Below are positions 21,650 to 27,052 of a DNA stretch of 64,000 nucleotides, in pieces. Location of the stretch: contig VGHE01000003.1 of the NCBI GenBank assembly GCA_016868315.1, forward strand, positions 248,001 through 312,000. The letters are read 5' to 3'. Each line of letters starts with the position of its first letter. Positions within the stretch are counted from its first letter, which is position 1. Below the pieces are notes generated by a model. The model worked only from the letters and a program-made list of their open reading frames with translations, did no database searches and was not told the DNA's origin. A program made the position numbers and the translations under genes. The DNA is from Betaproteobacteria bacterium. GTDB lineage: Bacteria; Bdellovibrionota_B; Oligoflexia; Silvanigrellales; Silvanigrellaceae.

Positions 21650-21666
21650 AGAAAGCATTGAATTCA
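21650..21666. repeat. Left copy of direct repeat flanking the element
   Basis: agaaagcattgaattca, identical to 26921-26937. Confidence 0.8.
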
Positions 21667-21700
21667 TGTAATTAACAATAGAAAATGTCAGGGGTTATCT

Positions 21701-21720
21701 CCCAAGCGATTATGTCAGGT
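21701..21720 (+). repeat. Left terminal inverted repeat
   Basis: cccaagcgattatgtcaggt; reverse complement matches 26895-26914 with one mismatch. Confidence 0.85.
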
Positions 21721-21762
21721 TCGAGGTTTAAACTCCCCCTTTCCATGGAAAAGGGAGGGGGC

Positions 21763-21939
21763 ATGGCCACGAAGGGTCTACTCGTGTCAGCTGACGATCA
21801 AATCCGCTACGAAAGCGTACAGTCCTATCTTCAAAGGGAAATATCTCTGTTGGAACTGGCCTCCGTCCTCAAGCTCACGGAGAGGCAGACCTACCGAGTG
21901 GTCGCCATCCTGAATAAGCAAGGAGTGCCGAACGCTTGA
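21763..21939 (+). pseudogene. Transposase N-terminal HTH fragment (ISNCY/IS1202-like)
   Basis: MATKGLLVSADDQIRYESVQSYLQREISLLELASVLKLTERQTYRVVAILNKQGV: helix-turn-helix typical of a transposase N-terminus, 42 nt inside the left TIR. Confidence 0.7.
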
Positions 21940-22061
21940 AATGGTCGACCGGAAATCGCTGACGGTGCGTTTGCGTTGACGGTGCAATTGATTTGTGTTT
22001 TTGGGTGGAAATATGGATCCATTGACTCGACACTTTTTCATCATTGGGGTTGGAGCGGGCT

Positions 22062-23078
22062 ATGAACACACATTCGCGAATCGAAAAATGCTTTCATTTG
22101 AAAAAAGTACTCTTGATTTCTGGTGTGCTTTTGGCATTGAATCTTCCGATTCAAACATCCGCGCAAACATCTTCGACGGCAGCGGATCTGGGTGGCCCAA
22201 TAACTCTTTCATCCGAACTCAAGAATGATATAATTTACAATCTCAGCAAGAAGGGCACAGTCGGCAACGACGCAGGATTGGATATAGTTCTTTCTGCTGA
22301 GATTACGAAACAGATTATCTTGAATCTGAAAATGGAGTTGGGCTACTCCTTCAATGAAAAAGAATTTTCTTCCGGTGCGTTGGAGGAACTTCTCACCGAG
22401 GCATACATCGAAGTAAAAAATGTTGGTGGAAAAAATGTAGCCTTCATCGTGGGCAAGCATCCCATCGCCTTCGGCGGTGATCTCCCAACTCTTCCCAACG
22501 GCGATACGGACTTGGATGCGAATACGAGAGAATTCACAGAGATAATTGGTTTGACAGTTCAGTTGTCAGACCTTGGCGTCTTTGATCTTGTCGAATTGTC
22601 GGGCTTCGAAAGCGGAGCGGGTGATTTGACTCTCGGTTCCATCAACGGAACGGCGATTAGGGTTTCGAAGGAAGTGTTGAAGGACCTTTCTGTGACCGCC
22701 TCTTCAATGACCGCAAAAGGCAGTTCGGACAGGGAGTGGAGAGGGAGTGTTGGCTTTATTTATGAATCCGGCAAGTGGACGACATGGTCAGAGGGCCAAT
22801 ATTTGTCTGGAAATGCTGAATATCCCGATGCAAATTACGTCGTGAAATCAGGGCTCAGTTACGGGGAGAGCGGAAACAAGATCACAGTTGGGGCGACTGC
22901 CGTTGAGAACTATTTTTCTGAAGTCGGTATTGGTTATGAATATGGAATCACACAAAACGCTACTTTCGGTCCGCAGATCCGATACAGAAAAAGTTGGGAT
23001 TTGGGCACCGATGAATTCATTGTTGAAGCAAGGACAACGATAAGATTCGATGGTCTGACTCTTCCGCGTCGTCGATAA
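22062..23078 (+). CDS. Predicted outer-membrane beta-barrel/porin-like protein
   Basis: Signal peptide (...LLALNLPIQTSAQ), alternating beta pattern, C-terminal barrel-like strands. Confidence 0.65.
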   Translation: MNTHSRIEKCFHLKKVLLISGVLLALNLPIQTSAQTSSTAADLGGPITLSSELKNDIIYNLSKKGTVGNDAGLDIVLSAEITKQIILNLKMELGYSFNEKEFSSGALEELLTEAYIEVKNVGGKNVAFIVGKHPIAFGGDLPTLPNGDTDLDANTREFTEIIGLTVQLSDLGVFDLVELSGFESGAGDLTLGSINGTAIRVSKEVLKDLSVTASSMTAKGSSDREWRGSVGFIYESGKWTTWSEGQYLSGNAEYPDANYVVKSGLSYGESGNKITVGATAVENYFSEVGIGYEYGITQNATFGPQIRYRKSWDLGTDEFIVEARTTIRFDGLTLPRRR

Positions 23079-23100
23079 TTCTACTGAAAACAAAGGGTCG

Positions 23101-23448
23101 ATGATCGTTATGAAACAAAATACTCTTTACGTTGCCATTCTTTTTTTGGCATTTGCTGTCATTGCTCTGTGCGCCCTGCAGTGGCGTGCGTCGGAGATGG
23201 TTGTGTTAACACCTGCGCCCGACAACAAAACGGAACAAGCATACCGGCGCAGCGGCTTTGGAGATAGGATCATGACCGCAGAGCGGCGCAAGACTTTATC
23301 AGCTTGCTACAAAACCATGCTGCGCAGCAATGGCTACGACGAAAATAAACCCACTCCATACTTGCTACAGCTGAGTGAATCGAATGCGTTTATCAATTCT
23401 GGTTCCTCCGCTGTTTCTTCTGTGCGGAGCAAGTTGCAAATCACGTGA
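23101..23448 (+). CDS. Small single-pass membrane/exported hypothetical protein
   Basis: N-terminal TM helix LYVAILFLAFAVIALCALQW; overlaps the following ORF. Confidence 0.5.
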   Translation: MIVMKQNTLYVAILFLAFAVIALCALQWRASEMVVLTPAPDNKTEQAYRRSGFGDRIMTAERRKTLSACYKTMLRSNGYDENKPTPYLLQLSESNAFINSGSSAVSSVRSKLQIT

Positions 23449-23758
23449 CTTTAACATCGATGATAAAAAAATCAGCGAATCGCACAAGATTCAAGGCAAT
23501 CAATGTGCGCGCCAGCTTGCGCAGTGGGAATCTGAGGCCAATGGAATAAGCAAGCGCCCATCGCACCAGCCCGCTCCAGTCCATTGCTTGATTGCAGCAG
23601 CGATTGGACGGGAGCAGATGTCGACTACGGCTGGCCGGACTAACGAAGGCCACTTCCGCATCCTAAAAAAATCAAAATACTCCCCGCTTGGCTCAGTTAT
23701 CCAAACTGGCCAAGGACGAAGGGTGTTTGCCGATTTTGACCTATGCACCTCGGGATGA
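23384..23758 (+). CDS. Small predicted lipoprotein (possibly decayed)
   Basis: MRLSILVPPLFLLCGASC lipobox-like signal; overlaps the upstream ORF in another frame. Confidence 0.4.
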   Translation: MRLSILVPPLFLLCGASCKSRDFNIDDKKISESHKIQGNQCARQLAQWESEANGISKRPSHQPAPVHCLIAAAIGREQMSTTAGRTNEGHFRILKKSKYSPLGSVIQTGQGRRVFADFDLCTSG

Positions 23759-25462: not shown

Positions 25463-25786
25463 AAATCCCCCAATGTCGGAAAAAGATTCGGTAAACTTAG
25501 GAAAATGGTACAGATCCCCGGAAAGATTGAAAAACTGAATTGTTTTCGCGAAAAATCAGACCCAACATAATTCCCGACAAAGAGGCCGCAGATTGCGAAT
25601 TTCATGGGCCTCACGATGGTCGTCGGCTCGATTTGGCTCGAGTTGTTGAACTAATTGATCTTGCACAGTGTGACGAATGTCTGATTCTTAAACAGTTCCC
25701 GAGAGAAAAAGTATTGAAAATCGTTAGGATTATCGAAGGCATGATCTTTGCACTTCGTGCAGAAGCCGCAGAGGGGAGCCAAGACT

Positions 25787-26476
25787 ATGCGCTTCAAGAA
25801 AACGTTTCTTTTACTCGCACTCATCGCAGCTTGTCATCCGCGCGAGCTTGATTCCGATGCGCAGAGTGGACTCCAGAAAGCACAAAAGCCTATGCATATT
25901 TCGGGCACGTGGCAGGCAACGGAAGTGTGGTCGTCACGTGAAGAAAACGGCCAGCGCAAGGCCATGTTCAAAAAATCTGAAGACCTGAAAGATGCCCTAT
26001 GGCGGGTGAAAATCGACATCGATGCAGATGGTCGAGGATTTATGAAGGGCGTCGTAAAGTGCACCGGCCCAGCGACTGCCAAGTCGGATCCAAAGAAAAT
26101 CCATTCCTTTCAGATCATAAACACAATCGTCGGGCTGCTGAGCTTGCCGAAACTGATTGAGCAAACCAAGAATGATATAGATTGCGCGAATGCTGTGGAT
26201 GGAAACATCTCGAGCGTGCTGGGAGTAACTCCGTCGTTCAACTTCTTGGGTCAAAGGCAAACCACACTTCCCAAGAACCTGGGTGTTTTTGGTGAAGCGC
26301 CCAGTTTGCATTTCACAGACAAAGAGTGCAACAGCATGCGCGGGGTGCGATTTATTGTTGTGCAACAGGCATCCGCCTGTGTCGGTTTCACCGATGCCAC
26401 GGCAAACAAGATCCGCTTTCTCATCATCCCTGTGGGAGAAATTCACGCGGTGCGTGTGAACCTGACGCGCGACTGA
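25787..26476 (+). CDS. Hypothetical predicted lipoprotein
   Basis: MRFKKTFLLLALIAAC lipobox; intact ORF of 229 aa. Confidence 0.7.
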   Translation: MRFKKTFLLLALIAACHPRELDSDAQSGLQKAQKPMHISGTWQATEVWSSREENGQRKAMFKKSEDLKDALWRVKIDIDADGRGFMKGVVKCTGPATAKSDPKKIHSFQIINTIVGLLSLPKLIEQTKNDIDCANAVDGNISSVLGVTPSFNFLGQRQTTLPKNLGVFGEAPSLHFTDKECNSMRGVRFIVVQQASACVGFTDATANKIRFLIIPVGEIHAVRVNLTRD

Positions 26477-26638
26477 GCGCGGTTTTTAAGGTGATGACTA
26501 TTTAAAACAATGAGCGTCACGCTCACGGTCGAGATTATAGGCTCGATAGCATAATGAATGATGAGGGTCAGCAAGATTACCGATTGGCACGTCAGCTGAT
26601 TTTTTATCCGCAGTTAGCCATTTATTGATTGGAGGCCT

Positions 26639-26890
26639 GTGCCTGAGGGCTTGGCTCTCGACAAAGTGTTCTCAATCCTCAAGCATAGAAAGGTGAATCC
26701 GGGCGAGACGATCTCATTGGATACTCATTCTTTCCGAGTGGCACATCCTGAGAAAATCTCACTCGCGAATCAAACCGTGGAGCTCAAGTTCGACTTGAGC
26801 GGACGAATGAGCATCTGGTTTGCAGGAACGGAACTGAAGTGGGAGCGCGTCCGAAAACAGCAGAGGATTCGGGCACGTGGGGTCGCCTGA
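26639..26890 (+). pseudogene. Transposase C-terminal fragment
   Basis: LDKVFSILKHRKVNPGETISLDTHSFRV...VELKFDLSGRMSIWFAGTELKW resembles the C-terminal domain of DDE IS transposases; stop codon 4 nt from the right TIR. Confidence 0.7.
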
Positions 26891-26894
26891 CCCT

Positions 26895-26914
26895 ACCTGA
26901 CATAGTCGCTTGGG
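26895..26914 (-). repeat. Right terminal inverted repeat
   Basis: acctgacatagtcgcttggg, reverse complement of the left TIR with 1 mismatch. Confidence 0.85.
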
Positions 26915-26920
26915 AACAAC

Positions 26921-26937
26921 AGAAAGCATTGAATTCA
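26921..26937. repeat. Right copy of flanking direct repeat
   Basis: agaaagcattgaattca, identical to 21650-21666. Confidence 0.8.
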
Positions 26938-27052
26938 CGGCACTACTATTAACAAATATAGTCAGTTATGATTCATGCAAGAGTTCCAATTTCGTTCTTG
27001 ATGAGCTTGATTTTTTAGACGAGGCCAGGTTCGGGAGTCATCTTTCAAGGGG

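Follow-up and report, generated by a model that had tools for sequence, protein, structure and literature searches.

Insertion sequences (IS's) of the IS1202 family, formerly placed within ISNCY, have TGT/ACA ends and an inner repeat near each end; in one subgroup, which includes IS1202, ISTde1, ISCARN62/63, and ISVbsp4, insertion creates target duplications of 16 to 28 bp, and a survey of the family found no target for these elements (PMC10132070). Dif-directed insertion was known from one branch of the family, the ISAjo2 group, which makes 5-bp duplications. Promoter-directed insertion was known from TnGBS, ISLre2, and ISKra4, which have Mutator-like DDE transposases and insert at a fixed distance and orientation to sigma-A promoters (PMC3942029). 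Here, we analyzed a 64,000-nucleotide stretch of DNA (the window; contig 3, positions 248001 to 312000, of the source genome, G000) that carries a 5.3-kb unit with IS ends around lipoprotein and other exported-protein genes. We consider it probable that this unit is the decayed shell of an IS1202-family element of the long-duplication type, and that its family inserts in one direction just upstream of FliA (sigma-28) promoters in Silvanigrella-like bacteria.

The likeness to the long-duplication subgroup (PMC10132070) lies in the TGT/ACA ends, the imperfect repeats of 24 to 28 bp with an inner copy, the duplications of 16 to 17 bp, and an ISNCY-type transposase whose intact parent has a Q seven residues after the catalytic E. 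Unlike those elements, this family has a clear promoter target, and the copy in the window lacks the transposase core and holds other genes. It differs from the ISAjo2 group in its 16-bp duplication at FliA-type promoters, and from TnGBS and its kind in both the transposase, which is of the unrelated ISNCY/IS1202 type, and the sigma-28 class of promoter. Transporter IS's and mobile insertion cassettes likewise have IS ends around passenger genes; the former keep their transposase and the latter move without one, whereas here the transposase has been cut in two.

Ends, duplication, and transposase remnants

The element occupies window positions 21667 to 26921 (5,255 bp), with imperfect inverted outer repeats running from TGT to ACA, and an exact 16-bp direct repeat, missed in the original prediction, flanks both ends (Table 1). 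That prediction, made from the letters of the window, had placed the unit at 21650 to 26965; the unit itself is real, and these limits give way to the true ends at 21667 and 26921. The inverted repeat it reported with one mismatch is confirmed (20/21, 21700 to 21720 against 26895 to 26915). It is not a chance match, since the pattern is found at 7 places in the genome at up to 3 mismatches and a reversed control pattern at none. Its left arm had been taken for the end of the element; this is the inner site, which had been paired with the outer right repeat. Both the outer repeat at 21667 to 21694 and the starts of other copies exclude it as the true left end: in a BLAST search with the left end, the copies on contigs C1, C14, C3 (C3b), and C8 of the same genome begin at the counterpart of 21667, and the match on C17 begins 4 bases inside.

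An inner repeat is thus present at the left end, and the right end has one transposase-binding repeat only; three related full right ends all have two in tandem. Duplications of 16 bp could also be reconstructed, across contig breaks, for insertions in G001 and G002, two of the three congeners compared (G001, G002, and G003), and the duplication of a relative in G051 is 17 bp long. In pattern searches of the copies in G000 to G003, left ends outnumbered right ends (13 versus 4), and the surviving end tends to be the one adjoining a lipoprotein promoter.

Both transposase fragments of the original prediction are real: they are the two ends of one intact IS in G001. Window positions 21667 to 21907 are 96% identical in DNA to L043:499-739 of this parent, and positions 26627 to 26913 are 93% identical to L043:1489-1775. 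The parent has a single open frame of 446 codons, within which both fragments are collinear, and its product scores 326 bits against the NCBIfam model NF033594 (ISNCY family transposase; cutoff, 250); the window is assigned to the IS1202/ISNCY type through this parent and itself holds only the two ends. What it keeps are the first ~109 and the last ~88 codons. The 750 bp encoding residues ~110 to 358 are gone, ~4.7 kb stands in their place, and the DDE motifs of the parent (residues ~207 to 310) all lie within the missing part, so that the catalytic domain is present in the parent and absent from the window copy. It is therefore borne out that the DDE core was replaced while the ends of the gene and of the element were kept. 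On its sequence, the window copy is a derivative and not an active member of the family.

Both fragments are also ~78% identical to another copy of the same IS subtype, on C171 of G001. Protein searches with the right fragment found intact homologs in the same genus only, and in the source genome (94.8% complete) no intact transposase of this family was found, the best matches being fragments. The search for a full-length parent therefore succeeded in a congener and gave only fragments in the source genome.

In G001, G002, and G003, the genes flanking the unit (window 19836 to 20876 and 27053 to 29185) are at most ~100 bp apart. All three have an empty site and lack not only the element but also the lipoprotein gene at 20986 to 21627; both are thus lineage specific at this locus.

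Promoters beside the left ends

When the outside flanks of left ends were aligned, ATCGG appeared at a constant distance, which reads CCGATA away from the IS. In Bdellovibrio bacteriovorus, the common attack-phase promoter, attributed to FliA, is TTAAG-N16-CCGATA, and we scored flanks by their matches to its 11 positions (PMC3627812), a consensus obtained independently of these flanks. The sample was 16 left ends from the source genome and the three congeners (15 in the first test, the sixteenth site coming from C9). With the -10 box at offsets 25 to 27, 10 of 15 flanks scored at least 8/11, versus 0.64% of random positions (P ~3e-19). The signal disappeared when the offset was slid, except for a few matches near 33 to 38, and flanks that failed in the first register mostly had the same promoter 11 bp further out. 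Allowing both registers (25 to 27 or 36 to 38), 14/16 flanks reached at least 8/11 against a background of 1.4% (P ~1e-24), and all 16 reached 7/11; the rate at offsets 45 to 140 of the same flanks predicts ~0.25 hits.

The insertion points lie ~5 or 16 bp before the -35 box, at a fixed distance and orientation to the promoter, as in TnGBS. Because the -35 box at our locus is inside the duplication, the whole promoter is kept in the left flank and the lipoprotein gene is uncut. All 16 copies have their left end toward a gene that lies just beyond and runs in the same direction, in most cases one for a lipoprotein, and in all 15 cases tested a same-direction open reading frame (ORF) starts 21 to 125 nt from the left end. 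Inspection of the 16 target products shows a lipobox in 14, and the remaining 2 appear to be exported; under the strict pattern applied to background genes, 9/16 are lipoproteins, versus 17% (P = 5e-4). Related genes bear on whether such a promoter is older than the insertion: the closest source-genome homolog (59%) of the target gene on G001 C118 has TTCAG-N17-CCGATA and no IS, and a G002 homolog has TTAAG-N16-CCGACC in front. A FliA gene is present in the source genome. Farther out, G004, which belongs to another genus in the family, has a 43% identical relative with the same ATCGG + 10 + 16 spacing, and a relative in G051 (40%) has a poorer match, AGCGATAA, as judged by inspection.

Several observations weigh against this reading. 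The second register was noticed after the data had been seen, and the dependence on FliA rests on the Bdellovibrio consensus. Upstream regions of the flagellin genes in the source genome show no clear CCGATA box, so these promoters do not serve as in-genome proof of the consensus. Lipoprotein genes without an IS have the motif (score of at least 9) in 12.5% of cases, versus 6% for other genes; the difference is not significant and leaves unsupported the idea that a general association of lipoproteins with the motif is the cause. Among more distant relatives, that in G034 carries a good motif, though at another distance, those in G060 and G061 have no such motif by inspection, and relatives on Vibrio and Pseudoalteromonas plasmids are at other targets.

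The idea that FliA promoters are the target of the whole long-duplication subgroup is not supported: seven plasmid copies in Vibrio, Shewanella, and Pseudoalteromonas, with duplications of 16 to 19 bp, are at other targets, and G060 and G061 count against it as well. Three copies on Pseudoalteromonas and Shewanella plasmids (L139, L141, and L142) have a common CTAGTACA target, with duplications starting CTAGTACA, which is a further sign that elements of this subgroup choose their targets. The target seems to differ from branch to branch.

We propose that, in the Silvanigrella-like branch, target choice would be set by the promoter itself, likeliest via promoter-bound FliA RNA polymerase; this guide is favored by the gap of about one helical turn between the two distances, and by analogy with TnGBS, ISLre2, and ISKra4. 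The main rival leaves FliA RNA polymerase out: the transposase would recognize the DNA motif itself, or be guided by another regulator with the same motif. The data are sequence only, the flagellin genes lack clear CCGATA boxes, and some relatives use quite different targets, all of which would fit such a reading. Against it, the sites agree with the FliA consensus in both boxes and in the 16-nt spacing, and two insertion distances one helical turn apart suit a bound complex better than a single recognized sequence. We regard this rival as possible though doubtful.

The interior and its origin

Table 1. Features at and within the unit (window coordinates)
Feature	Position	Strand	Remarks
Lipoprotein gene downstream of the hit promoter	20986..21627	-	Likely start 21600
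FliA-type promoter (predicted) at the insertion	21635..21661	-	TCAAT-N16-CCGATA; -10 at 21635-21640, -35 inside duplication
Left target site duplication copy	21651..21666	.	GAAAGCATTGAATTCA; exact repeat, 16 bp, outside both ends
Outer left terminal inverted repeat	21667..21694	+	Begins TGT; 18/28 identical to right end
Inner left transposase-binding site (putative)	21700..21720	+	TCCCAAGCGATTATGTCAGGT; 20/21 vs reverse complement of 26895-26915
Transposase N-terminal fragment (helix-turn-helix)	21763..21939	+	Parent homology stops at 21907 (junction alignment)
Exported protein, 338-344 aa	22044..23078	+	Orphan; two homologs besides itself in 5.8 billion proteins
Small exported protein	23101..23448	+	Residues 8-86 match standalone loci in G001 and G002
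Lipoprotein N-terminal fragment	23375..23563	+	Cut by ISCR-like repeat; 63% identity, residues 4-63, to G001 C118
ISCR/IS91-like element 3' end, 5'-truncated	23557..23907	+	15 matches in genome
96-aa protein	23927..24217	+	69% identical to G003 locus
Astacin-like lipoprotein	24293..25462	-	Zinc motif HEIGHAVGALHE; PF01400, 24.9 vs cutoff 22.5 bits
FliA-like promoter (predicted) of astacin-like gene	25474..25500	-	CTAAG-N16-CCGACA
Lipoprotein	25790..26476	+	Related to the genes that immediately follow IS left ends on own C1 and G002 C18
M48-like peptidase gene C-terminal fragment, ~42 codons	26498..26623	-	PF01435 on full gene
Transposase C-terminal fragment	26627..26890	+	NF033594 ISNCY transposase, E 5e-4
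Right terminal inverted repeat	26894..26921	-	Ends ACA; single repeat
Right target site duplication copy	26922..26937	.	GAAAGCATTGAATTCA; exact repeat

Pieces of the interior occur separately in relatives (Table 1). The lipoprotein at 25790 to 26476 is 25 to 27% identical to the target genes on C1 and G002 C18 (E, 2e-21 to 2e-22), and the M48-like fragment ends 4 nt from the transposase C-terminal fragment. The astacin-like assignment of the original prediction is supported by its Pfam score; the protein it had labeled barrel-like has no Pfam match. Rather than a clean cassette, the interior is a mosaic with truncated genes among its parts.

The ISCR/IS91-like sequence has its matches at 23557 to 23907 and on C1, C3, C8, C13, C17, C25, and C26 of the same genome. 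All are 5' truncated at varied points and nearly all have a common 3' end, GCTTAATTCCGCTTAGACGC, a pattern that one-ended rolling-circle copying would leave; many are at contig ends. Other copies of the IS also show rearrangement. At L032:331-1432 (C1 of the source genome), a related left end precedes the start of a different ISNCY transposase, and a C-terminal fragment of homoserine dehydrogenase comes next; another copy therefore also holds foreign DNA inside. At L035:8890-9010 (C9), a remnant of ~110 bp has a transposase start joined directly to a right end; it is near a GGTCGCC-like match, and this scar precedes a lipoprotein gene that is a homolog of the target on G003 C157. At L084:4181-6876 (G002 C151), a second transposase-like ORF lies between an IS left end and a transposase N-terminal fragment, followed by an ISCR-like end.

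We suggest that, after insertion, recombination and one-ended ISCR-like events swapped the 750 bp of transposase for 4.7 kb of accessory, lipoprotein-type genes, and that the unit may now be immobile or nearly so. Repeated landing before lipoprotein genes would give many recombination chances to bring such genes between IS ends. The events inside the unit cannot be put in order, which also counts against the account given here.

In a composite origin, the genes would have lain between two copies of the same IS, the whole block would have moved or recombined, and the facing ends and cores would have been lost later. The two fragments are of the same IS subtype and direction (96% and 93% identical to the copy on G001 C23, ~78% to that on C171), and lipoprotein genes would often come to lie between copies of an IS that homes to their promoters. 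Yet no inner IS ends are left, each side having one outer end and one transposase part rather than a flanking IS copy, and no other such composite was seen among the copies inspected; we hold this origin to be possible though doubtful.

The original prediction had favored a working non-autonomous cargo element, the 5.3-kb unit being moved by a transposase supplied in trans. In favor are its two outer ends and perfect 16-bp duplication, and the correct promoter spacing would also be expected had the whole unit moved. However, the source genome and the three congeners showed no further copy of the unit, no intact transposase was found in the source genome, one right-end binding repeat is missing, and scraps of truncated genes lie inside. 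A clean mobile cassette was accordingly dropped as the leading view, and we judge trans-mobilization improbable. The association with surface proteins probably has a different cause, the landing of this IS family before lipoprotein genes. An assembly or binning artifact, to which several copies near contig ends and the apparent swap of the G001 C23 and C171 ends across a repeat might point, is very improbable: the window copy is inside a 373-kb contig with unique sequence and matching duplications on both sides, and four separate genomes show the targeting pattern.

Proposed homing to FliA promoters

On balance, we lean slightly toward a fuller account, in which this Silvanigrellales IS1202 lineage homes to FliA promoters, probably by docking on the bound polymerase, at two positions one helical turn apart and in one orientation, such that the promoter survives; the IS would thereby seed, and later shuffle, genes for FliA-type lipoproteins. 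If true, a sigma-28 target would suggest that TnsB-like single-protein elements can exploit different DNA-bound complexes of the host, and what the transposase reads could be put to a direct test. Such a target would also account for the clustering of IS scars at the fast-changing lipoprotein genes of these Bdellovibrio relatives.
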